From the NCBI GenBank assembly GCA_017591395.1, contig WEDG01001062.1, forward strand, positions 1-64,000: a DNA stretch of 64,000 nucleotides. The letters run 5' to 3'. The notes under the pieces were generated by a model, which saw nothing but the letters and a program-made list of their open reading frames with translations, was not told the DNA's origin and searched no databases. A program made the translations under genes and the position numbers. This document shows, in pieces, positions 1 to 57,868 of this stretch (positions are counted from its first letter, which is position 1; each line of letters starts with the position of its first letter). The stretch comes from Schistocephalus solidus. Taxonomy: Eukaryota > Platyhelminthes > Cestoda > Diphyllobothriidea > Diphyllobothriidae.

Positions 1-17
1 CACTTGGGATTGGGTAT

Positions 18-62
18 GACTGGCTGATGACGGCTAATAAGCCAGAAATGGCCATTCCGGTC
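18..62 (+). ncRNA. Hammerhead-ribozyme-like fold, type I (first of 133 copies)
   Basis: Read as RNA, the segment gives stem I GACTGG (18-23) with CCGGTC (57-62), six pairs with one G-U. The core CTGATGA follows at 24-30. Stem II is GGCT (32-35) with AGCC (40-43) and loop AATA. GAAA is at 45-48. A two-pair stem III AT/AT encloses the palindromic loop GGCC (50-53), and cleavage is predicted after T56 in the triplet ATT. Stem I continues past an internal loop with GGG (12-14) to CCC (64-66). The order and spacing are those of type I hammerheads with a tiny stem III, as in newt, schistosome and retrozyme repeats. One odd point is that the pair at the base of stem II (31 and 44), normally G-C, is C and A. 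The fold is seen in the sequence; self-cleavage is not shown and may be impaired. Confidence 0.7.
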
Positions 63-231
63 TCCCTTGTCTTTGTCGGTTCCATTTCATCATATGCTAC
101 ACGTCGCTATGCGACCGCCTGCGAGGGCTCTAGTCTGAGCTCCAGGGCACAACGGATCATACATGTTCCTTAAGCAGATCGGTGAGCCCCACACTATCAT
201 CATATTCCCGATCACAACCGACAAAAACAAC

Positions 232-303
232 GAGCCCGTGGCTCATTGGTAGAGCGTTCGACTCAAATACCAAAGGTCGCGGGTTCGAATCCCAGGTGTG
301 CCA
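232..303 (+). tRNA. tRNA-like segment with Pol III A and B boxes (first of 132 copies; not a functional tRNA)
   Basis: This 72-nt segment recurs once per unit, starting 49-50 bp after each GTGAGCCCC. The A box is TGGCTCAATGG (consensus; this first copy reads TGGCTCATTGG) and the B box is GGTTCGAATCC. They are about 31 nt apart, as in real tRNA genes. The D stem GCTC/GAGC pairs perfectly. The anticodon loop would be CTCAAAT (CAA, leucine), but two of five anticodon-stem pairs fail. The T stem keeps three of five pairs, and the acceptor arms GAGCCCG and GTGTGCC do not pair. No 3' CCA is in the right place. This is the state expected of a tRNA-derived SINE head: the internal Pol III promoter is kept and tRNA structure is lost. 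Pol III promoter function is inferred from the boxes alone. Confidence 0.85.
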
Positions 304-456
304 CACTTGGGATTGGGTATGACTGGCTGATGACGGCTAATAAGCCAGAAATGGCCATTCCGGTCTCCCTTGTCTTTGTCGGTTCCATTTCATCATATGC
401 TACACGTCGCTATGCGACCGCCTGCGAGGGCTCTAGTCTGAGCTCCAGGGCACAAC

Positions 457-472
457 GGAACATACATGTTCC
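457..472 (+). repeat. 16-bp near-palindrome in the unit tail (representative)
   Basis: GGAACATACATGTTCC has 7-bp arms around a central AC. It is present once per unit. Two copies (about 34653-34668 and 39496-39511) read GGAACATGCATGTTCC and are perfect palindromes, while copies near 153 and 2583 read GGATCAT and lose a pair. It could form a hairpin in a transcript or a protein site in DNA. No function is claimed. Confidence 0.6.
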
Positions 473-533
473 TTAAGCAGATCGGTGAGCCCCACACTAT
501 CATCATATTCCCGATCACAACCGACAAAACAAC

Positions 534-604
534 GAGCCCCGTGGCTCAATGGTAGAGCGTTCGACTCAAATACCAAAGGTCGCGGTTTCGAATCTCAGGT
601 GTGC
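534..604 (+). tRNA. Divergent tRNA-like copy 2 with damaged B box
   Basis: The second copy differs from consensus at several points. It reads GAGCCCCG at the 5' end, the B box region reads GGTTTCGAATCTC, and one C is missing from the GTGCCACAC end. The A box is intact. It is likely a weak or dead promoter. The next copies return to consensus, so this is a local mutation and not a boundary. Confidence 0.7.
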
Positions 605-2256
605 ACACTTGGGATTGGGTATGACTGGCTGATGACGGCTAATAAGCCAGAAATGGCCATTCCGGTCTCCCCTTGTCTTTGTCGGTTCCATTTCATCATA
701 TGCTACACGTCGCTATGCGACCGCCTGCGAGGGCTCTAGTCTGAGCTCCAGGGCACAACGGAACATACATGTTCCTTAAGCAGATCGGTGAGCCCCACAC
801 TATCATCATATTCCCGATCACAACCGACAAAAACAACGAGCCCGTGGCTCAATGGTAGAGCGTTCGACTCAAATACCAAAGGTCGCGGGTTCGAATCCCA
901 GGTGTGCCACACTTGGGATTGGGTATGACTGGCTGATGACGGCTAATAAGCCAGAAATGGCCATTCCGGTCTCCCCTTGTCTTTGTCGGTTCCATTTCAT
1001 CATATGCTACACGTCGCTATGCGACCGCCTGCGAGGGCTCTAGTCTGAGCTCCAGGGCACAACGGAACATACATGTTCCTTAAGCAGATCGGTGAGCCCC
1101 ACACTATCATCATATTCCCGATCACAACCGACAAAACAACGAGCCCGTGGCTCAATGGTAGAGCGTTCGACTCAAATACCAAAGGTCGCGGGTTCGAATC
1201 CCAGGTGTGCCACACTTGGGATTGGGTATGACTGGCTGATGACGGCTAATAAGCCAGAAATGGCCATTCCGGTCTCCCCTTTGTCTTTGTCGGTTCCATT
1301 TCATCATATGCTACACGTCGCTATGCGACCGCCTGCGAGGGCTCTAGTCTGAGCTCCAGGGCACAACGGAACATACATGTTCCTTAAGCAGATCGGTGAG
1401 CCCCACACTATCATCATATTCCCGATCACAACCGACAAAACAACGAGCCCGTGGCTCAATGGTAGAGCGTTCGACTCAAATACCAAAGGTCGCGGGTTCG
1501 AATCCCAGGTGTGCCACACTTGGGATTGGGTATGACTGGCTGATGACGGCTAATAAGCCAGAAATGGCCATTCCGGTCTCCCCTTGTCTTTGTCGGTTCC
1601 ATTTCATCATATGCTACACGTCGCTATGCGACCGCCTGCGAGGGCTCTAGTCTGAGCTCCAGGGCACAACGGAACATACATGTTCCTTAAGCAGATCGGT
1701 GAGCCCCACACTATCATCATATTCCCGATCACAACCGACAAAAACAACGAGCCCGTGGCTCAATGGTAGAGCGTTCGACTCAAATACCAAAGGTCGCGGG
1801 TTCGAATCCCAGGTGTGCCACACTTGGGATTGGGTATGACTGGCTGATGACGGCTAATAAGCCAGAAATGGCCATTCCGGTCTCCCCTTGTCTTTGTCGG
1901 TTCCATTTCATCATATGCTACACGTCGCTATGCGACCGCCTGCGAGGGCTCTAGTCTGAGCTCCAGGGCACAACGGAACATACATGTTCCTTAAGCAGAT
2001 CGGTGAGCCCCACACTATCATCATATTCCCGATCACAACCGACAAAACAACGAGCCCGTGGCTCAATGGTAGAGCGTTCGACTCAAATACCAAAGGTCGC
2101 GGGTTCGAATCCCAGGTGTGCCACACTTGGGATTGGGTATGACTGGCTGATGACGGCTAATAAGCCAGAAATGGCCATTCCGGTCTCCCCTTGTCTTTGT
2201 CGGTTCCATTTCATCATATGCTACACGTCGCTATGCGACCGCCTGCGAGGGCTCTA

Positions 2257-2419
2257 CTCTGAGCTCCAGGGAACAACGGAACATACATGTTCCTTAAGAA
2301 AATCGGTGAGCCCCACACTATAATCATATTCCCGATCACAACCGACAAACTAACGAGCCCGTGGCTCAATGGTAGAGCGTTCGACTCAAATACCAAAGGT
2401 CGCGGGTTCGAATCCCAGT
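2257..2419 (+). repeat. Diverged stretch inside the array (unit near 2003-2430)
   Basis: A cluster of substitutions interrupts near-identical units. Changes include TAGTCTG to TACTCTG, GGGCAC to GGGAAC, AGCAGA to AGAAAA, ATCATC to ATAATC, and AGGTGTG to AGTTGTG. Most turn C or G into A or T. Both Pol III boxes survive. It may be a less-homogenised unit or a patch of low-quality consensus. Confidence 0.6.
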
Positions 2420-2658
2420 TGTGCCACACTTGGGATTGGGTATGACTGGCTGATGACGGCTAATAAGCCAGAAATGGCCATTCCGGTCTCCCCTTTGTCT
2501 TTGTCGGTTCCATTTCATCATATGCTACACGTCGCTATGCGACCGCCTGCGAGGGCTCTAGTCTGAGCTCCAGGGCACAACGGATCATACATGTTCCTTA
2601 AGCAGATCGGTGAGCCCCACACTATCATCATATTCCCGATCACAACCGACAAAACAAC

Positions 2659-2730
2659 GAGCCCGTGGCTCAATGGTAGAGCGTTCGACTCAAATACCAA
2701 AGGTCGCGGGTTCGAATCCCAGGTGTGCCA
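2659..2730 (+). promoter_or_regulatory. Consensus Pol III internal promoter (representative copy)
   Basis: This is a consensus copy of the tRNA-like segment, given for reference. The A box is at 2666-2676 and the B box GGTTCGAATCC at 2709-2719. Almost all units match it exactly. The 5' end is GAGCC-CGT-GGCTC, a perfect 5-bp hairpin that overlaps the A box and would compete with the cloverleaf. Transcription from this type-2 promoter would start slightly upstream and run into the hammerhead-like segment next to it. Confidence 0.8.
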
Positions 2731-5700
2731 CACTTGGGATTGGGTATGACTGGCTGATGACGGCTAATAAGCCAGAAATGGCCATTCCGGTCTCCCCTTG
2801 TCTTTGTCGGTTCCATTTCATCATATGCTACACGTCGCTATGCGACCGCCTGCGAGGGCTCTAGTCTGAGCTCCAGGGCACAACGGAACATACATGTTCC
2901 TTAAGCAGATCGGTGAGCCCCACACTATCATCATATTCCCGATCACAACCGACAAAACAACGAGCCCGTGGCTCAATGGTAGAGCGTTCGACTCAAATAC
3001 CAAAGGTCGCGGGTTCGAATCCCAGGTGTGCCACACTTGGGATTGGGTATGACTGGCTGATGACGGCTAATAAGCCAGAAATGGCCATTCCGGTCTCCCC
3101 TTGTCTTTGTCGGTTCCATTTCATCATATGCTACACGTCGCTATGCGACCGCCTGCGAGGGCTCTAGTCTGAGCTCCAGGGCACAACGGAACATACATGT
3201 TCCTTAAGCAGATCGGTGAGCCCCACACTATCATCATATTCCCGATCACAACCGACAAAAACAACGAGCCCGTGGCTCAATGGTAGAGCGTTCGACTCAA
3301 ATACCAAAGGTCGCGGGTTCGAATCCCAGGTGTGCCACACTTGGGATTGGGTATGACTGGCTGATGACGGCTAATAAGCCAGAAATGGCCATTCCGGTCT
3401 CCCTTGTCTTTGTCGGTTCCATTTCATCATATGCTACACGTCGCTATGCGACCGCCTGCGAGGGCTCTAGTCTGAGCTCCAGGGCACAACGGAACATACA
3501 TGTTCCTTAAGCAGATCGGTGAGCCCCACACTATCATCATATTCCCGATCACAACCGACAAAACAACGAGCCCGTGGCTCAATGGTAGAGCGTTCGACTC
3601 AAATACCAAAGGTCGCGGGTTCGAATCCCAGGTGTGCCACACTTGGGATTGGGTATGACTGGCTGATGACGGCTAATAAGCCAGAAATGGCCATTCCGGT
3701 CTCCCCTTGTCTTTGTCGGTTCCATTTCATCATATGCTACACGTCGCTATGCGACCGCCTGCGAGGGCTCTAGTCTGAGCTCCAGGGCACAACGGAACAT
3801 ACATGTTCCTTAAGCAGATCGGTGAGCCCCACACTATCATCATATTCCCGATCACAACCGACAAAACAACGAGCCCGTGGCTCAATGGTAGAGCGTTCGA
3901 CTCAAATACCAAAGGTCGCGGGTTCGAATCCCAGGTGTGCCACACTTGGGATTGGGTATGACTGGCTGATGACGGCTAATAAGCCAGAAATGGCCATTCC
4001 GGTCTCCCCTTGTCTTTGTCGGTTCCATTTCATCATATGCTACACGTCGCTATGCGACCGCCTGCGAGGGCTCTAGTCTGAGCTCCAGGGCACAACGGAA
4101 CATACATGTTCCTTAAGCAGATCGGTGAGCCCCACACTATCATCATATTCCCGATCACAACCGACAAAACAACGAGCCCGTGGCTCAATGGTAGAGCGTT
4201 CGACTCAAATACCAAAGGTCGCGGGTTCGAATCCCAGGTGTGCCACACTTGGGATTGGGTATGACTGGCTGATGACGGCTAATAAGCCAGAAATGGCCAT
4301 TCCGGTCTCCCCTTGTCTTTGTCGGTTCCATTTCATCATATGCTACACGTCGCTATGCGACCGCCTGCGAGGGCTCTAGTCTGAGCTCCAGGGCACAACG
4401 GAACATACATGTTCCTTAAGCAGATCGGTGAGCCCCACACTATCATCATATTCCCGATCACAACCGACAAAACAACGAGCCCGTGGCTCAATGGTAGAGC
4501 GTTCGACTCAAATACCAAAGGTCGCGGGTTCGAATCCCAGGTGTGCCACACTTGGGATTGGGTATGACTGGCTGATGACGGCTAATAAGCCAGAAATGGC
4601 CATTCCGGTCTCCCCTTGTCTTTGTCGGTTCCATTTCATCATATGCTACACGTCGCTATGCGACCGCCTGCGAGGGCTCTAGTCTGAGCTCCAGGGCACA
4701 ACGGAACATACATGTTCCTTAAGCAGATCGGTGAGCCCCACACTATCATCATATTCCCGATCACAACCGACAAAACAACGAGCCCGTGGCTCAATGGTAG
4801 AGCGTTCGACTCAAATACCAAAGGTCGCGGGTTCGAATCCCAGGTGTGCCACACTTGGGATTGGGTATGACTGGCTGATGACGGCTAATAAGCCAGAAAT
4901 GGCCATTCCGGTCTCCCCTTGTCTTTGTCGGTTCCATTTCATCATATGCTACACGTCGCTATGCGACCGCCTGCGAGGGCTCTAGTCTGAGCTCCAGGGC
5001 ACAACGGAACATACATGTTCCTTAAGCAGATCGGTGAGCCCCACACTATCATCATATTCCCGATCACAACCGACAAAAACAACGAGCCCGTGGCTCAATG
5101 GTAGAGCGTTCGACTCAAATACCAAAGGTCGCGGGTTCGAATCCCAGGTGTGCCACACTTGGGATTGGGTATGACTGGCTGATGACGGCTAATAAGCCAG
5201 AAATGGCCATTCCGGTCTCCCTTGTCTTTGTCGGTTCCATTTCATCATATGCTACACGTCGCTATGCGACCGCCTGCGAGGGCTCTAGTCTGAGCTCCAG
5301 GGCACAACGGAACATACATGTTCCTTAAGCAGATCGGTGAGCCCCACACTATCATCATATTCCCGATCACAACCGACAAAACAACGAGCCCGTGGCTCAA
5401 TGGTAGAGCGTTCGACTCAAATACCAAAGGTCGCGGGTTCGAATCCCAGGTGTGCCACACTTGGGATTGGGTATGACTGGCTGATGACGGCTAATAAGCC
5501 AGAAATGGCCATTCCGGTCTCCCCTTGTCTTTGTCGGTTCCATTTCATCATATGCTACACGTCGCTATGCGACCGCCTGCGAGGGCTCTAGTCTGAGCTC
5601 CAGGGCACAACGGAACATACATGTTCCTTAAGCAGATCGGTGAGCCCCACACTATCATCATATTCCCGATCACAACCGACAAAACAACGAGCCCGTGGCT

Positions 5701-8700
5701 CAATGGTAGAGCGTTCGACTCAAATACCAAAGGTCGCGGGTTCGAATCCCAGGTGTGCCACACTTGGGATTGGGTATGACTGGCTGATGACGGCTAATAA
5801 GCCAGAAATGGCCATTCCGGTCTCCCCTTGTCTTTGTCGGTTCCATTTCATCATATGCTACACGTCGCTATGCGACCGCCTGCGAGGGCTCTAGTCTGAG
5901 CTCCAGGGCACAACGGAACATACATGTTCCTTAAGCAGATCGGTGAGCCCCACACTATCATCATATTCCCGATCACAACCGACAAAACAACGAGCCCGTG
6001 GCTCAATGGTAGAGCGTTCGACTCAAATACCAAAGGTCGCGGGTTCGAATCCCAGGTGTGCCACACTTGGGATTGGGTATGACTGGCTGATGACGGCTAA
6101 TAAGCCAGAAATGGCCATTCCGGTCTCCCTTGTCTTTGTCGGTTCCATTTCATCATATGCTACACGTCGCTATGCGACCGCCTGCGAGGGCTCTAGTCTG
6201 AGCTCCAGGGCACAACGGAACATACATGTTCCTTAAGCAGATCGGTGAGCCCCACACTATCATCATATTCCCGATCACAACCGACAAAACAACGAGCCCG
6301 TGGCTCAATGGTAGAGCGTTCGACTCAAATACCAAAGGTCGCGGGTTCGAATCCCAGGTGTGCCACACTTGGGATTGGGTATGACTGGCTGATGACGGCT
6401 AATAAGCCAGAAATGGCCATTCCGGTCTCCCCTTGTCTTTGTCGGTTCCATTTCATCATATGCTACACGTCGCTATGCGACCGCCTGCGAGGGCTCTAGT
6501 CTGAGCTCCAGGGCACAACGGAACATACATGTTCCTTAAGCAGATCGGTGAGCCCCACACTATCATCATATTCCCGATCACAACCGACAAAACAACGAGC
6601 CCGTGGCTCAATGGTAGAGCGTTCGACTCAAATACCAAAGGTCGCGGGTTCGAATCCCAGGTGTGCCACACTTGGGATTGGGTATGACTGGCTGATGACG
6701 GCTAATAAGCCAGAAATGGCCATTCCGGTCTCCCCTTGTCTTTGTCGGTTCCATTTCATCATATGCTACACGTCGCTATGCGACCGCCTGCGAGGGCTCT
6801 AGTCTGAGCTCCAGGGCACAACGGAACATACATGTTCCTTAAGCAGATCGGTGAGCCCCACACTATCATCATATTCCCGATCACAACCGACAAAACAACG
6901 AGCCCGTGGCTCAATGGTAGAGCGTTCGACTCAAATACCAAAGGTCGCGGGTTCGAATCCCAGGTGTGCCACACTTGGGATTGGGTATGACTGGCTGATG
7001 ACGGCTAATAAGCCAGAAATGGCCATTCCGGTCTCCCTTGTCTTTGTCGGTTCCATTTCATCATATGCTACACGTCGCTATGCGACCGCCTGCGAGGGCT
7101 CTAGTCTGAGCTCCAGGGCACAACGGAACATACATGTTCCTTAAGCAGATCGGTGAGCCCCACACTATCATCATATTCCCGATCACAACCGACAAAACAA
7201 CGAGCCCGTGGCTCAATGGTAGAGCGTTCGACTCAAATACCAAAGGTCGCGGGTTCGAATCCCAGGTGTGCCACACTTGGGATTGGGTATGACTGGCTGA
7301 TGACGGCTAATAAGCCAGAAATGGCCATTCCGGTCTCCCCTTGTCTTTGTCGGTTCCATTTCATCATATGCTACACGTCGCTATGCGACCGCCTGCGAGG
7401 GCTCTAGTCTGAGCTCCAGGGCACAACGGAACATACATGTTCCTTAAGCAGATCGGTGAGCCCCACACTATCATCATATTCCCGATCACAACCGACAAAA
7501 CAACGAGCCCGTGGCTCAATGGTAGAGCGTTCGACTCAAATACCAAAGGTCGCGGGTTCGAATCCCAGGTGTGCCACACTTGGGATTGGGTATGACTGGC
7601 TGATGACGGCTAATAAGCCAGAAATGGCCATTCCGGTCTCCCTTGTCTTTGTCGGTTCCATTTCATCATATGCTACACGTCGCTATGCGACCGCCTGCGA
7701 GGGCTCTAGTCTGAGCTCCAGGGCACAACGGAACATACATGTTCCTTAAGCAGATCGGTGAGCCCCACACTATCATCATATTCCCGATCACAACCGACAA
7801 AACAACGAGCCCGTGGCTCAATGGTAGAGCGTTCGACTCAAATACCAAAGGTCGCGGGTTCGAATCCCAGGTGTGCCACACTTGGGATTGGGTATGACTG
7901 GCTGATGACGGCTAATAAGCCAGAAATGGCCATTCCGGTCTCCCCTTGTCTTTGTCGGTTCCATTTCATCATATGCTACACGTCGCTATGCGACCGCCTG
8001 CGAGGGCTCTAGTCTGAGCTCCAGGGCACAACGGAACATACATGTTCCTTAAGCAGATCGGTGAGCCCCACACTATCATCATATTCCCGATCACAACCGA
8101 CAAAACAACGAGCCCGTGGCTCAATGGTAGAGCGTTCGACTCAAATACCAAAGGTCGCGGGTTCGAATCCCAGGTGTGCCACACTTGGGATTGGGTATGA
8201 CTGGCTGATGACGGCTAATAAGCCAGAAATGGCCATTCCGGTCTCCCTTGTCTTTGTCGGTTCCATTTCATCATATGCTACACGTCGCTATGCGACCGCC
8301 TGCGAGGGCTCTAGTCTGAGCTCCAGGGCACAACGGAACATACATGTTCCTTAAGCAGATCGGTGAGCCCCACACTATCATCATATTCCCGATCACAACC
8401 GACAAAACAACGAGCCCGTGGCTCAATGGTAGAGCGTTCGACTCAAATACCAAAGGTCGCGGGTTCGAATCCCAGGTGTGCCACACTTGGGATTGGGTAT
8501 GACTGGCTGATGACGGCTAATAAGCCAGAAATGGCCATTCCGGTCTCCCCTTGTCTTTGTCGGTTCCATTTCATCATATGCTACACGTCGCTATGCGACC
8601 GCCTGCGAGGGCTCTAGTCTGAGCTCCAGGGCACAACGGAACATACATGTTCCTTAAGCAGATCGGTGAGCCCCACACTATCATCATATTCCCGATCACA

Positions 8701-11700
8701 ACCGACAAAACAACGAGCCCGTGGCTCAATGGTAGAGCGTTCGACTCAAATACCAAAGGTCGCGGGTTCGAATCCCAGGTGTGCCACACTTGGGATTGGG
8801 TATGACTGGCTGATGACGGCTAATAAGCCAGAAATGGCCATTCCGGTCTCCCCTTGTCTTTGTCGGTTCCATTTCATCATATGCTACACGTCGCTATGCG
8901 ACCGCCTGCGAGGGCTCTAGTCTGAGCTCCAGGGCACAACGGAACATACATGTTCCTTAAGCAGATCGGTGAGCCCCACACTATCATCATATTCCCGATC
9001 ACAACCGACAAAACAACGAGCCCGTGGCTCAATGGTAGAGCGTTCGACTCAAATACCAAAGGTCGCGGGTTCGAATCCCAGGTGTGCCACACTTGGGATT
9101 GGGTATGACTGGCTGATGACGGCTAATAAGCCAGAAATGGCCATTCCGGTCTCCCCTTGTCTTTGTCGGTTCCATTTCATCATATGCTACACGTCGCTAT
9201 GCGACCGCCTGCGAGGGCTCTAGTCTGAGCTCCAGGGCACAACGGAACATACATGTTCCTTAAGCAGATCGGTGAGCCCCACACTATCATCATATTCCCG
9301 ATCACAACCGACAAAACAACGAGCCCGTGGCTCAATGGTAGAGCGTTCGACTCAAATACCAAAGGTCGCGGGTTCGAATCCCAGGTGTGCCACACTTGGG
9401 ATTGGGTATGACTGGCTGATGACGGCTAATAAGCCAGAAATGGCCATTCCGGTCTCCCCTTGTCTTTGTCGGTTCCATTTCATCATATGCTACACGTCGC
9501 TATGCGACCGCCTGCGAGGGCTCTAGTCTGAGCTCCAGGGCACAACGGAACATACATGTTCCTTAAGCAGATCGGTGAGCCCCACACTATCATCATATTC
9601 CCGATCACAACCGACAAAACAACGAGCCCGTGGCTCAATGGTAGAGCGTTCGACTCAAATACCAAAGGTCGCGGGTTCGAATCCCAGGTGTGCCACACTT
9701 GGGATTGGGTATGACTGGCTGATGACGGCTAATAAGCCAGAAATGGCCATTCCGGTCTCCCCTTGTCTTTGTCGGTTCCATTTCATCATATGCTACACGT
9801 CGCTATGCGACCGCCTGCGAGGGCTCTAGTCTGAGCTCCAGGGCACAACGGAACATACATGTTCCTTAAGCAGATCGGTGAGCCCCACACTATCATCATA
9901 TTCCCGATCACAACCGACAAAACAACGAGCCCGTGGCTCAATGGTAGAGCGTTCGACTCAAATACCAAAGGTCGCGGGTTCGAATCCCAGGTGTGCCACA
10001 CTTGGGATTGGGTATGACTGGCTGATGACGGCTAATAAGCCAGAAATGGCCATTCCGGTCTCCCCTTGTCTTTGTCGGTTCCATTTCATCATATGCTACA
10101 CGTCGCTATGCGACCGCCTGCGAGGGCTCTAGTCTGAGCTCCAGGGCACAACGGAACATACATGTTCCTTAAGCAGATCGGTGAGCCCCACACTATCATC
10201 ATATTCCCGATCACAACCGACAAAAACAACGAGCCCGTGGCTCAATGGTAGAGCGTTCGACTCAAATACCAAAGGTCGCGGGTTCGAATCCCAGGTGTGC
10301 CACACTTGGGATTGGGTATGACTGGCTGATGACGGCTAATAAGCCAGAAATGGCCATTCCGGTCTCCCCTTGTCTTTGTCGGTTCCATTTCATCATATGC
10401 TACACGTCGCTATGCGACCGCCTGCGAGGGCTCTAGTCTGAGCTCCAGGGCACAACGGAACATACATGTTCCTTAAGCAGATCGGTGAGCCCCACACTAT
10501 CATCATATTCCCGATCACAACCGACAAAACAACGAGCCCGTGGCTCAATGGTAGAGCGTTCGACTCAAATACCAAAGGTCGCGGGTTCGAATCCCAGGTG
10601 TGCCACACTTGGGATTGGGTATGACTGGCTGATGACGGCTAATAAGCCAGAAATGGCCATTCCGGTCTCCCTTGTCTTTGTCGGTTCCATTTCATCATAT
10701 GCTACACGTCGCTATGCGACCGCCTGCGAGGGCTCTAGTCTGAGCTCCAGGGCACAACGGAACATACATGTTCCTTAAGCAGATCGGTGAGCCCCACACT
10801 ATCATCATATTCCCGATCACAACCGACAAAACAACGAGCCCGTGGCTCAATGGTAGAGCGTTCGACTCAAATACCAAAGGTCGCGGGTTCGAATCCCAGG
10901 TGTGCCACACTTGGGATTGGGTATGACTGGCTGATGACGGCTAATAAGCCAGAAATGGCCATTCCGGTCTCCCCTTGTCTTTGTCGGTTCCATTTCATCA
11001 TATGCTACACGTCGCTATGCGACCGCCTGCGAGGGCTCTAGTCTGAGCTCCAGGGCACAACGGAACATACATGTTCCTTAAGCAGATCGGTGAGCCCCAC
11101 ACTATCATCATATTCCCGATCACAACCGACAAAACAACGAGCCCGTGGCTCAATGGTAGAGCGTTCGACTCAAATACCAAAGGTCGCGGGTTCGAATCCC
11201 AGGTGTGCCACACTTGGGATTGGGTATGACTGGCTGATGACGGCTAATAAGCCAGAAATGGCCATTCCGGTCTCCCCTTGTCTTTGTCGGTTCCATTTCA
11301 TCATATGCTACACGTCGCTATGCGACCGCCTGCGAGGGCTCTAGTCTGAGCTCCAGGGCACAACGGAACATACATGTTCCTTAAGCAGATCGGTGAGCCC
11401 CACACTATCATCATATTCCCGATCACAACCGACAAAACAACGAGCCCGTGGCTCAATGGTAGAGCGTTCGACTCAAATACCAAAGGTCGCGGGTTCGAAT
11501 CCCAGGTGTGCCACACTTGGGATTGGGTATGACTGGCTGATGACGGCTAATAAGCCAGAAATGGCCATTCCGGTCTCCCCTTGTCTTTGTCGGTTCCATT
11601 TCATCATATGCTACACGTCGCTATGCGACCGCCTGCGAGGGCTCTAGTCTGAGCTCCAGGGCACAACGGAACATACATGTTCCTTAAGCAGATCGGTGAG

Positions 11701-17059: not shown

Positions 17060-17247
17060 TCACGTCGCCATGCGACCGCCTGCGAGGGCTCTAGTCTGAG
17101 CTCCAGGGCACAACGGAACATACATGTTCCTTAAGCAGATCGGTGAGCCCCAACACCTTCATCATGTTCCCAGTCACAACCGAAAAAACAACGAGCTCGT
17201 GGCTCAATGGTAGAGCGTTCAACTCAAATACCAAAGGTCACAGGTAC
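17060..17247 (+). repeat. Diverged satellite stretch with broken B box
   Basis: This is the most divergent unit junction in the array. The tail reads CTTCACGTCGCCATG, then CCAACACCTTCATCATGTTCCC in place of the usual segment. The tRNA-like part begins GAGCTCG, and the B box is GGTACGAATCC with the invariant second T changed to A. It also carries AAAAAA before the tRNA-like segment. The A box is intact. It probably escaped homogenisation or was seeded from another array. Confidence 0.7.
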
Positions 17248-23200: not shown

Positions 23201-23682
23201 TATCATCATATTCCCGATCACAACCGACAAAACAACGAGCCCGTGGCTCAATGGTAGAGCGTTCGACTCAAATACCAAAGGTCGCGGGTTCGAATCCCAG
23301 GTGTGCCACACTTGGGATTGGGTATGACTGGCTGATGACGGCTAATAAGCCAGAAATGGCCATTCCGGTCTCCCCTTGTCTTTGTCGGTTCCATTTCATC
23401 ATATGCTACACGTCGCTATGCGACCGCCTGCGAGGGCTCTAGTCTGAGCTCCAGGGCACAACGGAACATACATGTTCCTTAAGCAGATCGGTGAGCCCCA
23501 CACTATCATCATATTCCCGATCACAACCGACAAAACAACGAGCCCGTGGCTCAATGGTAGAGCGTTCGACTCAAATACCAAAGGTCGCGGGTTCGAATCC
23601 CAGGTGTGCCACACTTGGGATTGGGTATGACTGGCTGATGACGGCTAATAAGCCAGAAATGGCCATTCCGGTCTCCCTTGTC

Positions 23683-23686
23683 TTTT
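23683..23686 (+). terminator. Rare TTTT in a satellite unit
   Basis: The consensus unit has no run of four T on the + strand, so it lacks a Pol III terminator. This unit reads GTCTTTTGTCGG. Only one other internal unit (35779-35782) has TTTT. A one-base homopolymer read error could explain it. Confidence 0.4.
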
Positions 23687-29600: not shown

Positions 29601-32600
29601 CAATGGTAGAGCGTTCGACTCAAATACCAAAGGTCGCGGGTTCGAATCCCAGGTGTGCCACACTTGGGATTGGGTATGACTGGCTGATGACGGCTAATAA
29701 GCCAGAAATGGCCATTCCGGTCTCCCTTGTCTTTGTCGGTTCCATTCCATCATATGCTACACGTCGCTATGCGACCGCCTGCGAGGGCTCTAGTCTGAGC
29801 TCCAGGGCACAACGGAACATACATGTTCCTTAAGCAGATCGGTGAGCCCCACACTATCATCATATTCCCGATCACAACCGACAAAACAACGAGCCCGTGG
29901 CTCAATGGTAGAGCGTTCGACTCAAATACCAAAGGTCGCGGGTTCGAATCCCAGGTGTGCCACACTTGGGATTGGGTATGACTGGCTGATGACGGCTAAT
30001 AAGCCAGAAATGGCCATTCCGGTCTCCCCTTGTCTTTGTCGGTTCCATTCCATCATATGCTACACGTCGCTATGCGACCGCCTGCGAGGGCTCTAGTCTG
30101 AGCTCCAGGGCACAACGGAACATACATGTTCCTTAAGCAGATCGGTGAGCCCCACACTATCATCATATTCCCGATCACAACCGACAAAACAACGAGCCCG
30201 TGGCTCAATGGTAGAGCGTTCGACTCAAATACCAAAGGTCGCGGGTTCGAATCCCAGGTGTGCCACACTTGGGATTGGGTATGACTGGCTGATGACGGCT
30301 AATAAGCCAGAAATGGCCATTCCGGTCTCCCCTTGTCTTTGTCGGTTCCATTTCATCATATGCTACACGTCGCTATGCGACCGCCTGCGAGGGCTCTAGT
30401 CTGAGCTCCAGGGCACAACGGAACATACATGTTCCTTAAGCAGATCGGTGAGCCCCACACTATCATCATATTCCCGATCACAACCGACAAAACAACGAGC
30501 CCGTGGCTCAATGGTAGAGCGTTCGACTCAAATACCAAAGGTCGCGGGTTCGAATCCCAGGTGTGCCACACTTGGGATTGGGTATGACTGGCTGATGACG
30601 GCTAATAAGCCAGAAATGGCCATTCCGGTCTCCCTTGTCTTTGTCGGTTCCATTCATCATATGCTACACGTCGCTATGCGACCGCCTGCGAGGGCTCTAG
30701 TCTGAGCTCCAGGGCACAACGGAACATACATGTTCCTTAAGCAGATCGGTGAGCCCCACACTATCATCATATTCCCGATCACAACCGACAAAACAACGAG
30801 CCCGTGGCTCAATGGTAGAGCGTTCGACTCAAATACCAAAGGTCGCGGGTTCGAATCCCAGGTGTGCCACACTTGGGATTGGGTATGACTGGCTGATGAC
30901 GGCTAATAAGCCAGAAATGGCCATTCCGGTCTCCCTTGTCTTTGTCGGTTCCATTTCATCATATGCTACACGTCGCTATGCGACCGCCTGCGAGGGCTCT
31001 AGTCTGAGCTCCAGGGCACAACGGAACATACATGTTCCTTAAGCAGATCGGTGAGCCCCACACTATCATCATATTCCCGATCACAACCGACAAAACAACG
31101 AGCCCGTGGCTCAATGGTAGAGCGTTCGACTCAAATACCAAAGGTCGCGGGTTCGAATCCCAGGTGTGCCACACTTGGGATTGGGTATGACTGGCTGATG
31201 ACGGCTAATAAGCCAGAAATGGCCATTCCGGTCTCCCTTGTCTTTGTCGGTTCCATTTCATCATATGCTACACGTCGCTATGCGACCGCCTGCGAGGGCT
31301 CTAGTCTGAGCTCCAGGGCACAACGGAACATACATGTTCCTTAAGCAGATCGGTGAGCCCCACACTATCATCATATTCCCGATCACAACCGACAAAACAA
31401 CGAGCCCGTGGCTCAATGGTAGAGCGTTCGACTCAAATACCAAAGGTCGCGGGTTCGAATCCCAGGTGTGCCACACTTGGGATTGGGTATGACTGGCTGA
31501 TGACGGCTAATAAGCCAGAAATGGCCATTCCGGTCTCCCTTGTCTTTGTCGGTTCCATTTCATCATATGCTACACGTCGCTATGCGACCGCCTGCGAGGG
31601 CTCTAGTCTGAGCTCCAGGGCACAACGGAACATACATGTTCCTTAAGCAGATCGGTGAGCCCCACACTATCATCATATTCCCGATCACAACCGACAAAAC
31701 AACGAGCCCGTGGCTCAATGGTAGAGCGTTCGACTCAAATACCAAAGGTCGCGGGTTCGAATCCCAGGTGTGCCACACTTGGGATTGGGTATGACTGGCT
31801 GATGACGGCTAATAAGCCAGAAATGGCCATTCCGGTCTCCCTTGTCTTTGTCGGTTCCATTTCATCATATGCTACACGTCGCTATGCGACCGCCTGCGAG
31901 GGCTCTAGTCTGAGCTCCAGGGCACAACGGAACATACATGTTCCTTAAGCAGATCGGTGAGCCCCACACTATCATCATATTCCCGATCACAACCGACAAA
32001 ACAACGAGCCCGTGGCTCAATGGTAGAGCGTTCGACTCAAATACCAAAGGTCGCGGGTTCGAATCCCAGGTGTGCCACACTTGGGATTGGGTATGACTGG
32101 CTGATGACGGCTAATAAGCCAGAAATGGCCATTCCGGTCTCCCTTGTCTTTGTCGGTTCCATTTCATCATATGCTACACGTCGCTATGCGACCGCCTGCG
32201 AGGGCTCTAGTCTGAGCTCCAGGGCACAACGGAACATACATGTTCCTTAAGCAGATCGGTGAGCCCCACACTATCATCATATTCCCGATCACAACCGACA
32301 AAACAACGAGCCCGTGGCTCAATGGTAGAGCGTTCGACTCAAATACCAAAGGTCGCGGGTTCGAATCCCAGGTGTGCCACACTTGGGATTGGGTATGACT
32401 GGCTGATGACGGCTAATAAGCCAGAAATGGCCATTCCGGTCTCCCTTGTCTTTGTCGGTTCCATTTCATCATATGCTACACGTCGCTATGCGACCGCCTG
32501 CGAGGGCTCTAGTCTGAGCTCCAGGGCACAACGGAACATACATGTTCCTTAAGCAGATCGGTGAGCCCCACACTATCATCATATTCCCGATCACAACCGA

Positions 32601-35600
32601 CAAAACAACGAGCCCGTGGCTCAATGGTAGAGCGTTCGACTCAAATACCAAAGGTCGCGGGTTCGAATCCCAGGTGTGCCACACTTGGGATTGGGTATGA
32701 CTGGCTGATGACGGCTAATAAGCCAGAAATGGCCATTCCGGTCTCCCCTTGTCTTTGTCGGTTCCATTCCATCATATGCTACACGTCGCTATGCGACCGC
32801 CTGCGAGGGCTCTAGTCTGAGCTCCAGGGCACAACGGAACATACATGTTCCTTAAGCAGATCGGTGAGCCCCACACTATCATCATATTCCCGATCACAAC
32901 CGACAAAAACAACGAGCCCGTGGCTCAATGGTAGAGCGTTCGACTCAAATACCAAAGGTCGCGGGTTCGAATCCCAGGTGTGCCACACTTGGGATTGGGT
33001 ATGACTGGCTGATGACGGCTAATAAGCCAGAAATGGCCATTCCGGTCTCCCTTGTCTTTGTCGGTTCCATTTCATCATATGCTACACGTCGCTATGCGAC
33101 CGCCTGCGAGGGCTCTAGTCTGAGCTCCAGGGCACAACGGAACATACATGTTCCTTAAGCAGATCGGTGAGCCCCACACTATCATCATATTCCCGATCAC
33201 AACCGACAAAACAACGAGCCCGTGGCTCAATGGTAGAGCGTTCGACTCAAATACCAAAGGTCGCGGGTTCGAATCCCAGGTGTGCCACACTTGGGATTGG
33301 GTATGACTGGCTGATGACGGCTAATAAGCCAGAAATGGCCATTCCGGTCTCCCTTGTCTTTGTCGGTTCCATTCCATCATATGCTACACGTCGCTATGCG
33401 ACCGCCTGCGAGGGCTCTAGTCTGAGCTCCAGGGCACAACGGAACATACATGTTCCTTAAGCAGATCGGTGAGCCCCACACTATCATCATATTCCCGATC
33501 ACAACCGACAAAACAACGAGCCCGTGGCTCAATGGTAGAGCGTTCGACTCAAATACCAAAGGTCGCGGGTTCGAATCCCAGGTGTGCCACACTTGGGATT
33601 GGGTATGACTGGCTGATGACGGCTAATAAGCCAGAAATGGCCATTCCGGTCTCCCTTGTCTTTGTCGGTTCCATTTCATCATATGCTACACGTCGCTATG
33701 CGACCGCCTGCGAGGGCTCTAGTCTGAGCTCCAGGGCACAACGGAACATACATGTTCCTTAAGCAGATCGGTGAGCCCCACACTATCATCATATTCCCGA
33801 TCACAACCGACAAAACAACGAGCCCGTGGCTCAATGGTAGAGCGTTCGACTCAAATACCAAAGGTCGCGGGTTCGAATCCCAGGTGTGCCACACTTGGGA
33901 TTGGGTATGACTGGCTGATGACGGCTAATAAGCCAGAAATGGCCATTCCGGTCTCCCCTTGTCTTTGTCGGTTCCATTTCATCATATGCTACACGTCGCT
34001 ATGCGACCGCCTGCGAGGGCTCTAGTCTGAGCTCCAGGGCACAACGGAACATACATGTTCCTTAAGCAGATCGGTGAGCCCCACACTATCATCATATTCC
34101 CGATCACAACCGACAAAACAACGAGCCCGTGGCTCAATGGTAGAGCGTTCGACTCAAATACCAAAGGTCGCGGGTTCGAATCCCAGGTGTGCCACACTTG
34201 GGATTGGGTATGACTGGCTGATGACGGCTAATAAGCCAGAAATGGCCATTCCGGTCTCCCCTTGTCTTTGTCGGTTCCATTTCATCATATGCTACACGTC
34301 GCTATGCGACCGCCTGCGAGGGCTCTAGTCTGAGCTCCAGGGCACAACGGAACATACATGTTCCTTAAGCAGATCGGTGAGCCCCACACTATCATCATAT
34401 TCCCGATCACAACCGACAAAACAACGAGCCCGTGGCTCAATGGTAGAGCGTTCGACTCAAATACCAAAGGTCGCGGGTTCGAATCCCAGGTGTGCCACAC
34501 TTGGGATTGGGTATGACTGGCTGATGACGGCTAATAAGCCAGAAATGGCCATTCCGGTCTCCCTTGTCTTTGTCGGTTCCATTTCATCATATGCTACACG
34601 TCGCTATGCGACCGCCTGCGAGGGCTCTAGTCTGAGCTCCAGGGCACAACGGAACATGCATGTTCCTTAAGCAGATCGGTGAGCCCCACACTATCATCAT
34701 ATTCCCGATCACAACCGACAAAACAACGAGCCCGTGGCTCAATGGTAGAGCGTTCGACTCAAATACCAAAGGTCGCGGGTTCGAATCCCAGGTGTGCCAC
34801 ACTTGGGATTGGGTATGACTGGCTGATGACGGCTAATAAGCCAGAAATGGCCATTCCGGTCTCCCTTGTCTTTGTCGGTTCCATTTCATCATATGCTACA
34901 CGTCGCTATGCGACCGCCTGCGAGGGCTCTAGTCTGAGCTCCAGGGCACAACGGAACATACATGTTCCTTAAGCAGATCGGTGAGCCCCACACTATCATC
35001 ATATTCCCGATCACAACCGACAAAACAACGAGCCCGTGGCTCAATGGTAGAGCGTTCGACTCAAATACCAAAGGTCGCGGGTTCGAATCCCAGGTGTGCC
35101 ACACTTGGGATTGGGTATGACTGGCTGATGACGGCTAATAAGCCAGAAATGGCCATTCCGGTCTCCCTTGTCTTTGTCGGTTCCATTTCATCATATGCTA
35201 CACGTCGCTATGCGACCGCCTGCGAGGGCTCTAGTCTGAGCTCCAGGGCACAACGGAACATACATGTTCCTTAAGCAGATCGGTGAGCCCCACACTATCA
35301 TCATATTCCCGATCACAACCGACAAAACAACGAGCCCGTGGCTCAATGGTAGAGCGTTCGACTCAAATACCAAAGGTCGCGGGTTCGAATCCCAGGTGTG
35401 CCACACTTGGGATTGGGTATGACTGGCTGATGACGGCTAATAAGCCAGAAATGGCCATTCCGGTCTCCCTTGTCTTTGTCGGTTCCATTTCATCATATGC
35501 TACACGTCGCTATGCGACCGCCTGCGAGGGCTCTAGTCTGAGCTCCAGGGCACAACGGAACATACATGTTCCTTAAGCAGATCGGTGAGCCCCACACTAT

Positions 35601-35778
35601 CATCATATTCCCGATCACAACCGACAAAAACAACGAGCCCGTGGCTCAATGGTAGAGCGTTCGACTCAAATACCAAAGGTCGCGGGTTCGAATCCCAGGT
35701 GTGCCACACTTGGGATTGGGTATGACTGGCTGATGACGGCTAATAAGCCAGAAATGGCCATTCCGGTCTCCCCTTGTC

Positions 35779-35782
35779 TTTT
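35779..35782 (+). terminator. Second rare TTTT in a satellite unit
   Basis: GTCTTTTGTCGG again replaces GTCTTTGTCGG. The same unit carries CCCC and the CATTCATC deletion variant, so it is a distinct unit type and not just a single miscalled base. Confidence 0.4.
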
Positions 35783-38700
35783 GTCGGTTCCATTCATCAT
35801 ATGCTACACGTCGCTATGCGACCGCCTGCGAGGGCTCTAGTCTGAGCTCCAGGGCACAACGGAACATACATGTTCCTTAAGCAGATCGGTGAGCCCCACA
35901 CTATCATCATATTCCCGATCACAACCGACAAAACAACGAGCCCGTGGCTCAATGGTAGAGCGTTCGACTCAAATACCAAAGGTCGCGGGTTCGAATCCCA
36001 GGTGTGCCACACTTGGGATTGGGTATGACTGGCTGATGACGGCTAATAAGCCAGAAATGGCCATTCCGGTCTCCCTTGTCTTTGTCGGTTCCATTTCATC
36101 ATATGCTACACGTCGCTATGCGACCGCCTGCGAGGGCTCTAGTCTGAGCTCCAGGGCACAACGGAACATACATGTTCCTTAAGCAGATCGGTGAGCCCCA
36201 CACTATCATCATATTCCCGATCACAACCGACAAAACAACGAGCCCGTGGCTCAATGGTAGAGCGTTCGACTCAAATACCAAAGGTCGCGGGTTCGAATCC
36301 CAGGTGTGCCACACTTGGGATTGGGTATGACTGGCTGATGACGGCTAATAAGCCAGAAATGGCCATTCCGGTCTCCCTTGTCTTTGTCGGTTCCATTTCA
36401 TCATATGCTACACGTCGCTATGCGACCGCCTGCGAGGGCTCTAGTCTGAGCTCCAGGGCACAACGGAACATACATGTTCCTTAAGCAGATCGGTGAGCCC
36501 CACACTATCATCATATTCCCGATCACAACCGACAAAACAACGAGCCCGTGGCTCAATGGTAGAGCGTTCGACTCAAATACCAAAGGTCGCGGGTTCGAAT
36601 CCCAGGTGTGCCACACTTGGGATTGGGTATGACTGGCTGATGACGGCTAATAAGCCAGAAATGGCCATTCCGGTCTCCCTTGTCTTTGTCGGTTCCATTT
36701 CATCATATGCTACACGTCGCTATGCGACCGCCTGCGAGGGCTCTAGTCTGAGCTCCAGGGCACAACGGAACATACATGTTCCTTAAGCAGATCGGTGAGC
36801 CCCACACTATCATCATATTCCCGATCACAACCGACAAAACAACGAGCCCGTGGCTCAATGGTAGAGCGTTCGACTCAAATACCAAAGGTCGCGGGTTCGA
36901 ATCCCAGGTGTGCCACACTTGGGATTGGGTATGACTGGCTGATGACGGCTAATAAGCCAGAAATGGCCATTCCGGTCTCCCCTTGTCTTTGTCGGTTCCA
37001 TTTCATCATATGCTACACGTCGCTATGCGACCGCCTGCGAGGGCTCTAGTCTGAGCTCCAGGGCACAACGGAACATACATGTTCCTTAAGCAGATCGGTG
37101 AGCCCCACACTATCATCATATTCCCGATCACAACCGACAAAAACAACGAGCCCGTGGCTCAATGGTAGAGCGTTCGACTCAAATACCAAAGGTCGCGGGT
37201 TCGAATCCCAGGTGTGCCACACTTGGGATTGGGTATGACTGGCTGATGACGGCTAATAAGCCAGAAATGGCCATTCCGGTCTCCCCTTGTCTTTGTCGGT
37301 TCCATTTCATCATATGCTACACGTCGCTATGCGACCGCCTGCGAGGGCTCTAGTCTGAGCTCCAGGGCACAACGGAACATACATGTTCCTTAAGCAGATC
37401 GGTGAGCCCCACACTATCATCATATTCCCGATCACAACCGACAAAACAACGAGCCCGTGGCTCAATGGTAGAGCGTTCGACTCAAATACCAAAGGTCGCG
37501 GGTTCGAATCCCAGGTGTGCCACACTTGGGATTGGGTATGACTGGCTGATGACGGCTAATAAGCCAGAAATGGCCATTCCGGTCTCCCCTTGTCTTTGTC
37601 GGTTCCATTTCATCATATGCTACACGTCGCTATGCGACCGCCTGCGAGGGCTCTAGTCTGAGCTCCAGGGCACAACGGAACATACATGTTCCTTAAGCAG
37701 ATCGGTGAGCCCCACACTATCATCATATTCCCGATCACAACCGACAAAACAACGAGCCCGTGGCTCAATGGTAGAGCGTTCGACTCAAATACCAAAGGTC
37801 GCGGGTTCGAATCCCAGGTGTGCCACACTTGGGATTGGGTATGACTGGCTGATGACGGCTAATAAGCCAGAAATGGCCATTCCGGTCTCCCCTTGTCTTT
37901 GTCGGTTCCATTTCATCATATGCTACACGTCGCTATGCGACCGCCTGCGAGGGCTCTAGTCTGAGCTCCAGGGCACAACGGAACATACATGTTCCTTAAG
38001 CAGATCGGTGAGCCCCACACTATCATCATATTCCCGATCACAACCGACAAAACAACGAGCCCGTGGCTCAATGGTAGAGCGTTCGACTCAAATACCAAAA
38101 GGTCGCGGGTTCGAATCCCAGGTGTGCCACACTTGGGATTGGGTATGACTGGCTGATGACGGCTAATAAGCCAGAAATGGCCATTCCGGTCTCCCTTGTC
38201 TTTGTCGGTTCCATTCCATCATATGCTACACGTCGCTATGCGACCGCCTGCGAGGGCTCTAGTCTGAGCTCCAGGGCACAACGGAACATACATGTTCCTT
38301 AAGCAGATCGGTGAGCCCCACACTATCATCATATTCCCGATCACAACCGACAAAAACAACGAGCCCGTGGCTCAATGGTAGAGCGTTCGACTCAAATACC
38401 AAAGGTCGCGGGTTCGAATCCCAGGTGTGCCACACTTGGGATTGGGTATGACTGGCTGATGACGGCTAATAAGCCAGAAATGGCCATTCCGGTCTCCCCT
38501 TGTCTTTGTCGGTTCCATTTCATCATATGCTACACGTCGCTATGCGACCGCCTGCGAGGGCTCTAGTCTGAGCTCCAGGGCACAACGGAACATACATGTT
38601 CCTTAAGCAGATCGGTGAGCCCCACACTATCATCATATTCCCGATCACAACCGACAAAACAACGAGCCCGTGGCTCAATGGTAGAGCGTTCGACTCAAAT

Positions 38701-39872
38701 ACCAAAAGGTCGCGGGTTCGAATCCCAGGTGTGCCACACTTGGGATTGGGTATGACTGGCTGATGACGGCTAATAAGCCAGAAATGGCCATTCCGGTCTC
38801 CCTTGTCTTTGTCGGTTCCATTTCATCATATGCTACACGTCGCTATGCGACCGCCTGCGAGGGCTCTAGTCTGAGCTCCAGGGCACAACGGAACATACAT
38901 GTTCCTTAAGCAGATCGGTGAGCCCCACACTATCATCATATTCCCGATCACAACCGACAAAACAACGAGCCCGTGGCTCAATGGTAGAGCGTTCGACTCA
39001 AATACCAAAGGTCGCGGGTTCGAATCCCAGGTGTGCCACACTTGGGATTGGGTATGACTGGCTGATGACGGCTAATAAGCCAGAAATGGCCATTCCGGTC
39101 TCCCTTGTCTTTGTCGGTTCCATTTCATCATATGCTACACGTCGCTATGCGACCGCCTGCGAGGGCTCTAGTCTGAGCTCCAGGGCACAACGGAACATAC
39201 ATGTTCCTTAAGCAGATCGGTGAGCCCCACACTATCATCATATTCCCGATCACAACCGACAAAACAACGAGCCCGTGGCTCAATGGTAGAGCGTTCGACT
39301 CAAATACCAAAGGTCGCGGGTTCGAATCCCAGGTGTGCCACACTTGGGATTGGGTATGACTGGCTGATGACGGCTAATAAGCCAGAAATGGCCATTCCGG
39401 TCTCCCTTGTCTTTGTCGGTTCCATTTCATCATATGCTACACGTCGCTATGCGACCGCCTGCGAGGGCTCTAGTCTGAGCTCCAGGGCACAACGGAACAT
39501 GCATGTTCCTTAAGCAGATCGGTGAGCCCCACACTATCATCATATTCCCGATCACAACCGACAAAACAACGAGCCCGTGGCTCAATGGTAGAGCGTTCGA
39601 CTCAAATACCAAAGGTCGCGGGTTCGAATCCCAGGTGTGCCACACTTGGGATTGGGTATGACTGGCTGATGACGGCTAATAAGCCAGAAATGGCCATTCC
39701 GGTCTCCCTTGTCTTTGTCGGTTCCATTTCATCATATGCTACACGTCGCTATGCGACCGCCTGCGAGGGCTCTAGTCTGAGCTCCAGGGCACAACGGAAC
39801 ATACATGTTCCTTAAGCAGATCGGTGAGCCCCACACTATCATCATATTCCCGATCACAACCGACAAAACAAC

Positions 39873-39945
39873 GAGCCCGTGGCTCAATGGTAGAGCGTTC
39901 GACTCAAATACCAAAGGTCGCGGGTTTCGAATCCCAGGTGTGCCA
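39873..39945 (+). tRNA. Last tRNA-like copy, B box interrupted by one T
   Basis: The last copy is 73 nt because the B box reads GGTTTCGAATCC, with one added T. The A box is consensus. It is followed by an intact hammerhead-like segment. The same added T is seen in copy 2. Confidence 0.7.
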
Positions 39946-39962
39946 CACTTGGGATTGGGTAT

Positions 39963-40007
39963 GACTGGCTGATGACGGCTAATAAGCCAGAAATGGCCAT
40001 TCCGGTC
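39963..40007 (+). ncRNA. Last hammerhead-like copy of the array
   Basis: The final copy keeps every element: GACTGG 39963-39968, CTGATGA 39969-39975, CCGGTC 40002-40007. It lies in the truncated last unit, directly before the array border. The translated strings crossing this segment are identical in every intact unit, so the 45 nt appear invariant across the array. Confidence 0.65.
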
Positions 40008-40016
40008 TCCCTTGTC

Positions 40017-40021
40017 TTTTT
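40017..40021 (+). terminator. TTTTT in the final truncated unit, possible Pol III stop
   Basis: The last unit reads GTCTTTTTGCGG where others read GTCTTTGTCGG. It gives the only run of five T on the + strand in the array and lies downstream of the last hammerhead-like copy. A second T run (TTTTTTT, about 40051-40057) follows. Transcripts reading through the array would stop here. This role is inferred. Confidence 0.4.
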
Positions 40022-40059
40022 GCGGTTCCATTTCGTATATACATATTATATATTTTTTT

Positions 40060-54601: not shown

Positions 54602-54660
54602 GGTGTCGCAGCACCTGAGGTTGGGTATGACTGGCTACCAGTCTCTCTTGACGTTGTCGA
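54602..54660 (+). repeat. Solitary diverged relic of the satellite/SINE family, ribozyme core deleted
   Basis: The segment aligns to the array unit from GGTGT (end of the tRNA-like part) onward. CACCTGAGGTTGGG matches CACTTGGGATTGGG, TATGACTGGCT is identical, and TCTCTCTTGACGTTGTCG matches TCTCCCTTGTCTTTGTCGG. Relative to the unit, 30 nt are missing between the two arms of stem I, leaving GACTGG-CTA-CCAGTC. The encoded frame still reads GYDWL-PVSL. It shows the family exists outside the array. A separate CCAGGTGTGCC at 54739-54749 may belong to the same old copy, but out of order. Confidence 0.65.
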
Positions 54661-57811: not shown

Positions 57812-57868
57812 CAAACTTGCGTGCCAACAGGAACATGAGGAAAACACAATTCTTTCCTTTATGATCTA

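Follow-up and report, generated by a model that had tools for sequence, protein, structure and literature searches.

A Hammerhead-Bearing Satellite from the Tapeworm Schistocephalus solidus as a Candidate Non-autonomous Retrozyme

Results

The first 64,000 nt of contig WEDG01001062.1 from the tapeworm Schistocephalus solidus (assembly GCA_017591395.1), here called the window, begin with a tandem array of 302/303-bp units that we designate family A, each of them containing a block that resembles a type I hammerhead ribozyme (Table 1). COX1, encoded on other contigs of this assembly, shares 95% identity over 445 residues with that of Dibothriocephalus dendriticus and places the host among the diphyllobothriid tapeworms. 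The first base of the window is base 1 of the contig, and where the array begins on the left is therefore out of view; on the right, the array stops at unit position 88, within the first of the two classes of 3′ ends described below, and adjoins AT-rich DNA. Tandem Repeats Finder (TRF) returned a period of 303 with 132.3 copies over positions 1–40034, and the 132 spacings between consecutive blocks were of 303 (56 cases), 302 (56), 304 (15), or 301 bp (5). In steps of 2 kb, the GC content of the array is 52–53% vs. 31–38% in the remaining 24 kb, and its plus strand contains runs of four or more T at only three places in 40 kb (23683, 35779, and 40017). The only open reading frames (ORFs) of at least 60 aa starting from ATG in positions 1–1300 have 63 and 65 aa, with none longer in the family A unit.

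An identical 45-nt block (GACTGG-CTGATGA-C-GGCT-AATA-AGCC-A-GAA-AT-GGCC-AT-T-CCGGTC) occurs on the plus strand in 133/133 units of positions 1–40035, and no version of it with up to six errors was found on the opposite strand of the window. The CUGANGA…GAAA core is intact in all of them, and a descriptor of core plus stems found no match in 20,000 Markov-1 resamplings of two units or on either strand of positions 40101–64000. A preliminary description of this DNA had proposed one type I hammerhead per unit in about 133 copies; the block does recur exactly, with C·A rather than G-C at position 10.1/11.1, the pair that closes helix II. The very short helix III, the likeness to the repeats of newts and metazoan retrozymes, and the predicted cut after unit position 56, all put forward in that description, are supported by our results. 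Conversely, units are not unchanged as a whole: there are 23 distinct sequences among 132 array units, and the 31 distinct substitutions all lie within unit positions 86–295, with none in positions 1–65, whereas the most frequent indel affects the C run at 64–66. Because the probability of finding no substitution in positions 1–65 is only about 0.05 when substitutions are counted as tract-clustered events, the invariance of the block across the array is weak evidence of constraint. Units 7 and 56 (0-based) contain 8 and 13 substitutions, respectively, all outside unit positions 1–65, and resemble tracts imported from a diverged copy.

Folding of positions 12–68 (57 nt) gave an ordinary stability (z −1.20), and the center of its minimum free energy (MFE) structure is not a hammerhead. 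Likewise, for an isolated 45-mer the hammerhead has −6.5 kcal/mol against an MFE of −12.5 kcal/mol, whereas for two 45-mers the double hammerhead has −33.7 kcal/mol against a dimer MFE of −35.5 kcal/mol; this dimer MFE structure is the double hammerhead with an additional A14-U17 pair at either end of helix III. These energies leave tertiary contacts out of account. Helix III of family A with its loop is the palindrome AUGGCCAU, able to pair between copies, so that two of them can share one long helix III; such palindromes have been described as typical of repeat-type hammerheads, for which dimeric action is possible (PMC3088659; PMC6155905). Because the monomer MFE structure is not a hammerhead, whereas two copies nearly fold as a double hammerhead, our models indicate that dimeric action is more likely than the single ribozyme per unit of the preliminary description. 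In a G-C-closed copy with a non-palindromic loop (L055), the dimer MFE structure (−36.3 kcal/mol) differs from the double hammerhead (−33.9 kcal/mol).

The circular family A unit has an MFE of −111.7 kcal/mol (z −2.97). The two longest unpaired runs of this fold, which was chosen without using the positions of insertion ends, are the loops at unit positions 187–204 and 82–94. Downstream of them, each of three units searched matched the tRNA model RF00005 with 24.3–27.3 bits, below the cut-off of 29, and a match of 30.4 bits at 2355–2426 was the only one to reach the gathering cut-off in the window; ARAGORN did not find a tRNA. The tRNA-like stretch of the consensus unit contains an A box (TGGCTCAATGG) and a B box (GGTTCGAATCC), with variation among individual units. 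These boxes are the consensus of the internal promoter of RNA polymerase III (Pol III), and their sequence suggests that family A may use this polymerase.

Genome-wide counts, which cover all 603.7 Mb (8019 contigs) of the assembly, showed the family A core with up to three mismatches at 35,416 places (17,822 + 17,594, window included) and its reversed control at none; a variant with a GGCTGG stem occurs at 3,439 + 3,356 places. Besides long arrays, family A forms partial, single, and few-unit dispersed copies. Insertion ends were compiled from 47 stretches, namely 46 loci and the array edge of the window, after dropping matches of less than 80% identity or shorter than 21 nt (14 of 210). As many as 31 of the 71 3′ ends fall in unit positions 77–98 and another 23 in positions 195–208, which together are 36 of 302 positions, and each of these classes overlaps one of the two predicted loops; 5′ ends are scattered, with 4 of 37 in the same two intervals. 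Within 30 bases, an (AT)4 run accompanies 37 of the 71 3′ ends and 3 of the 37 5′ ends; the corresponding figure for random positions from the same stretches is 316 of 9,400. The 48 insertions bounded at both ends have the orientations −− (19), ++ (15), −+ (13, head-to-head), and +− (1), although L090–L094, which supply two of the −+ cases and the only +−, were chosen for their neighbors on opposite strands. An apparent excess of one end per loop among head-to-head copies (7 of the 9 whose two ends both belong to the classes) was set aside, the sample being too small.

Rare copies closed by G-C and with non-palindromic helix III loops were seen in L055 (1495–1539), L056, L057, L058, L059, L060, L062, and L063; beyond a ribozyme module of about 80 nt, those in L056, L060, and L063 have little likeness to family A, and the module may be common to several elements. 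We dropped the idea that G-C-closed copies (nine exact places) are ancestral, given that double changes are possible by chance among 35,416 places and that distinct blocks mostly have C·A.

For the analysis of covariation we took 240 unit matches outside the array (13 overlapping loci were left out). Removal of 77 that did not cover the whole block and of 14 with gaps left 149 blocks, 61 of them distinct. Over these 61 blocks, pairs are formed in 90.7% of cells for helix I, 95.1% for helix III, and just 72.8% for helix II, the last because of the C·A. Two-sided cells in the hammerhead were 9, vs. 4.8 in shuffles (15/500). An apparently lower divergence around the ribozyme was discarded as biased, because the loci had been found through the ribozyme.

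A second, unrelated family (family B) is represented by the sequence CTGATGATCGGTAATGACCGTGAAACAGCTGTC, which with up to three mismatches occurs at 2,237 places (1125 + 1112; reversed control, 0), mostly in arrays with a spacing of about 232 bp among the matches listed (approximately the first hundred). It has the core and the spacings in common with family A, U·U at 10.1/11.1, and the helix III palindrome ACAGCUGU; its stems pair, although with other sequences (GAUGUA/UGCGUC, CGGU/ACCG, and AC/GU), and the rest of the unit, with 45% GC, shows no real similarity to family A and contains neither an A box nor a B box. Family B was first found with a descriptor that requires pairing and, therefore, its pairing is not independent evidence; its repetition is, and so is its match to a model built from family A blocks alone (19.4 bits, E 0.0088; the loci were chosen for holding family B and E-values are rough). 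Its ends were examined in six stretches, of which L081 and L084 overlap. The 3′ ends map to unit positions 203–206 in L070, L078, L081/L084, and L088, and also to 197 (L089), 169 (L078), and 81 (L084). All adjoin AT tracts apart from the one in L089, which has an end of family A as its neighbor, and inverted copies were found in L078, L084, and L089. Examples of this family are found in L070 (2854–3330), L084, and L089, and in contigs C69, C85, and C191.

A fragment related to the reverse transcriptase (RT) of Penelope-like elements (PLEs) lies about 0.75 kb from the array. Pfam gave no meaningful match for the fragment itself (40789–41136), whereas an ORF in one of its relatives in the genome, 150 of which were scored among 12,217 candidates, matches RVT_1. 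By eye, we also spotted in PLE-like sequence a motif that presumably is GIY-YIG-like; it was not reported by Pfam. An RT with GIY-YIG is not encoded by the family A unit, with no ORF longer than 65 aa from ATG, and RT was found only in separate PLE copies. In two (L071 and L073) of nine PLE loci fetched by RT match, the 3′ ends of a PLE and of family A lie opposite one another on either side of a single AT-rich tract; we regard this abutment as anecdotal, given how densely family A populates the genome. Other PLEs are arranged in head-to-tail tandems of about 2.57 kb (L074, L075, and L076, in C404, C1163, and C2311), with no hammerhead found by the descriptor within the element. The preliminary description had not noted the tRNA-like part of the unit, the extent of family A over 35,416 places as arrays and dispersed copies, the clustering of insertion ends at (AT)n, family B, or the PLEs.

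In the remainder of the window, a decayed family A relative has lost its ribozyme center, and its helix I strands (GACTGG/CCAGTC) nearly touch. An ORF on the minus strand (57332–57865) matches Ion_trans_N (PF08412, 49 bits), which suggests that part of an ion-channel gene lies in the flank.

Table 1. Features of the family A array and its flank in the window; unit features are given for the first unit.
Feature	Position	Strand	Details and basis
Tandem array of family A, 302/303-bp unit	1–40035	+	Truncated on the left by the contig start; stops on the right at unit position 88
Type I hammerhead-like block, first of 133 copies (last, 39963–40007)	18–62	+	Exact block and folding
Outer helix I	12–66	+	GGG (12–14)/CCC (64–66), internal loop UAU/U; from sequence, pairs form in the fold of 12–68
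Helix I	18–23/57–62	+	GACUGG/CCGGUC, six pairs including one U·G
Core	24–30; 45–47	+	CUGAUGA; GAA
C·A mismatch (10.1/11.1)	31/44	+	Base of helix II
Helix II and loop	32–35/40–43; loop 36–39	+	GGCU/AGCC; loop AAUA
Helix III and palindromic loop	48–49/54–55; loop 50–53	+	AU/AU closing tetraloop GGCC
Predicted cleavage site	after 56	+	After U17, ahead of CCGGUC
Unpaired loop of predicted unit RNA, CCAUUUCAUCAUA	82–94	+	Overlaps 3′-end class 77–98
AC-rich unpaired loop of predicted unit RNA, CCCCACACUAUCAUCAUA	187–204	+	Overlaps 3′-end class 195–208
tRNA-like part	232–300	+	RF00005
A box	239–249	+	One change from consensus
B box	282–292	+	
T5 run	40017–40021	+	Right edge of array
Penelope-like RT-related fragment	40789–41136	−	Relatives in genome
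Decayed family A relative	54602–54750	+	Ribozyme center lost between helix I strands; family A model, 14.0 bits, E 0.32

Discussion

Our results indicate that the array probably is a locus of a non-autonomous animal retrozyme without long terminal repeats (non-LTR), with a tRNA-like promoter and a hammerhead that acts mainly as a dimer, and which is moved by a Penelope-like enzyme; the self-cleavage, the circles, and the polymerase of family A are inferred. Transcription by Pol III would start at the tRNA-like part and read through many units, whose adjacent hammerheads would pair via their palindrome to form a double hammerhead that cleaves after unit position 56. A host RNA ligase would circularize the resulting RNAs of about 303 nt, which as single circles would cut themselves poorly. 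A Penelope-like enzyme would then nick both strands of (AT)n targets and prime cDNA synthesis in the two open loops; priming on both strands would lead to tandem and head-to-head insertions, able to grow later into arrays. With somewhat less than even confidence, we further propose that a hammerhead functional only as a dimer, due to a mispaired helix II and a palindromic helix III, cuts multimers and spares single circles, that the PLE enzyme primes in the two open loops from both (AT)n strands, and that two unrelated families have the same solution.

The animal non-LTR retrozymes described from Acropora, Mytilus, and Ambystoma (PMC7229834) resemble family A in their type I hammerhead, in tandem repeats near 300 bp with no long ORF, in occurring as few-unit copies to long arrays, and in coexisting with PLEs; in the axolotl, they include a palindromic tetraloop (Amex1) and U·U at the base of helix II (Amex2). 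With its units of 301–304 bp in 133 copies, the array is within the range of retrozymes, which are tandem repeats of 150–450 bp from dimers to multimers, and PLEs coexist with it, as evidenced by the relatives of the RT fragment and RVT_1 in one of them; that the unit has no long ORF comes from the ORF listing for positions 1–1300 of the window. Family A differs from these retrozymes in having C·A in the place of G-C or U·U, a tRNA-like promoter, and 52% GC vs. less than 45–50%, and most of the text of PMC7229834 describes neither clustered ends at (AT)n nor head-to-head copies. What sets family A apart from these retrozymes is the C·A that closes helix II, its tRNA-like promoter, and its pattern of insertions.

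Among flatworms, SMalpha and the W-elements of Schistosoma mansoni are also satellite-like and SINE-like (short interspersed element), with a type I hammerhead of very short stem III, and the ribozymes of the W-elements are active in vitro (PMC8490949). By description, and not by sequence, SMalpha may be the nearest relative of family A, although a word search of PMC8490949 found no mention of Pol III or tRNA, as opposed to the tRNA-like part of family A. A search of open-licence papers for hammerhead ribozymes of cestodes led to none that describes, in its title or the opening of its abstract, a ribozyme from a tapeworm. The hammerheads of newt satellite 2 and those associated with PLEs, which reportedly cleave as dimers, have like family A a very short helix III and a self-complementary loop; unlike them, family A has a C·A closing mismatch and is known here from its sequence. 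A parallel to the insertion record comes from PAc, the PLE of Anolis, for which passages of PMC11167929 describe that the purified element starts reverse transcription internally, at two sites of an AC-rich stem loop near the hammerhead, and that both DNA strands are cut and extended, at AT-rich targets. By analogy, the internal starts, the two-strand extension, and the AT-rich target of this enzyme resemble the insertion record of family A, with the difference that PAc encodes its own protein, whereas the family A unit has no frame longer than 65 codons from ATG in positions 1–1300 of the window.

Several results weigh against our interpretation. Rfam found no hammerhead in the window at the gathering cut-off, the sole match being one tRNA, or in 920 nt at E-values of up to 10, with three tRNA matches; on 81 nt, the sole match was Hammerhead_HH9 (RF02275), with 17.2 bits and E 0.029, so that the fold anticipated in the preliminary description was recovered by a covariance model only well below the cut-off of 52. 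The G-C-closed copy of L055 reached 21.3 bits and E 0.0014 against the Rfam hammerhead. The base of helix II is C·A in 44 of the 61 distinct blocks, and position 10.1/11.1 is, according to passages of PMC3088659, the most conserved pair aside from 15.1–16.1, with natural cases of U·U, which allows more cleavage than other mispairs there; C·A is not named in them as the best. The paired cells of the hammerhead (84.5%) hardly exceed those of shuffles (83.9%; 36/500 as high) and its covariation score was reached by 168/500, not clearly above chance; it is thus not clear from covariation within the family that the hammerhead fold is real, and we do not take it as proof. As for family B, none of the Rfam hammerhead models matched it, and its dimer MFE structure (−25.0 kcal/mol) is a different fold from the double hammerhead (−24.1 kcal/mol). 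The GC content of the family A unit, 52.3%, is not the low one of retrozymes, which is a trend in their description and not a mechanism, and no hammerhead turned up within PLE copies when 12 loci were scanned. Finally, 17 of the 71 3′ ends are outside both classes, and the sampled loci were found mostly through the ribozyme core, so that single copies ending before unit position 62 are under-sampled; among runs of more than one unit, for which this bias is weaker, 25 of 35 3′ ends fall in the two classes and one in unit positions 50–62, near the cleavage site. Separately, a search of the genome with RF00163, in which 73 of 91,055 candidates were scored, led to four places below the threshold, none with a family A match, and it was not considered further because 11 of 14 control genomes also responded.

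Of the alternatives, the most serious, and one that we consider quite possible even if we do not favor it, is that movement does not depend on the ribozyme, even though it is active, with the PLE protein priming internally on unprocessed multimers and cleavage trimming afterwards. In the anole PLE, according to passages of PMC11167929, the hammerhead cleaves only in the presence of protein and ribozyme mutants insert unchanged; the latter is the strongest argument that cleavage or circles may be unnecessary. Additionally, 3′ ends at 77–98 and 195–208 need no circle, and the linear fold of the unit leaves the same two loops open, so that the loops are no argument for a circle; the anole mutants and the linear fold also count against the scheme proposed above. 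On the other hand, a dispensable ribozyme does not account well for the fact that two unrelated families each have a precise ribozyme in every unit, and the published animal retrozymes yield abundant circles (passages of PMC7229834).

It seems unlikely that family A is by now a satellite of the ordinary kind, namely an old retrozyme with its ribozyme inactivated by the C·A and its DNA amplified by unequal exchange. The mismatch, the lack of a gathering match in Rfam, and the unclear covariation would all fit, as would the 23 near-identical unit types among 132 units, which are what homogenization of DNA predicts; however, the C·A block is also retained in dispersed insertions and not in arrays alone, and family B, with U·U at 10.1/11.1, shows similar signs of movement. 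DNA amplification may well explain the 40-kb length of this one array.

The tRNA-like part with its A and B boxes would also be expected from a tRNA-derived SINE moved by a long interspersed element (LINE), in which the hammerhead is incidental, but we consider this very improbable, because family B has ends at (AT)n and inverted copies yet lacks both boxes, and family A ends at two internal sites and frequently occurs as head-to-head copies (the LINEs of this genome were not searched). Least probable of all is that the competing hairpin CUGGCU/AGCCAG, which pairs and preserves A11.1, is the selected structure and the hammerhead likeness secondary, or that the hairpin is its off-state: it pairs in 86.9% of cells and exceeds all 500 shuffles in covariation score, a point that does not favor the hammerhead, but this covariation rests on just five two-sided cells, some of them in poorly aligned old copies, and the hairpin leaves the GAAA, the helix III palindrome, and family B unexplained.

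Passages of PMC7229834 leave open which enzyme mobilizes animal retrozymes, naming PLEs as a strong candidate, and why their circles stay closed, for which an unknown block of the ribozyme is supposed. With its 35,416 family A places, the genome of S. solidus documents start sites, target, and orientation as they occur in nature, and makes it possible to test both questions using one RNA and one protein. If true, the dimer-only hammerhead would tie animal retrozymes to the machinery of PLEs.

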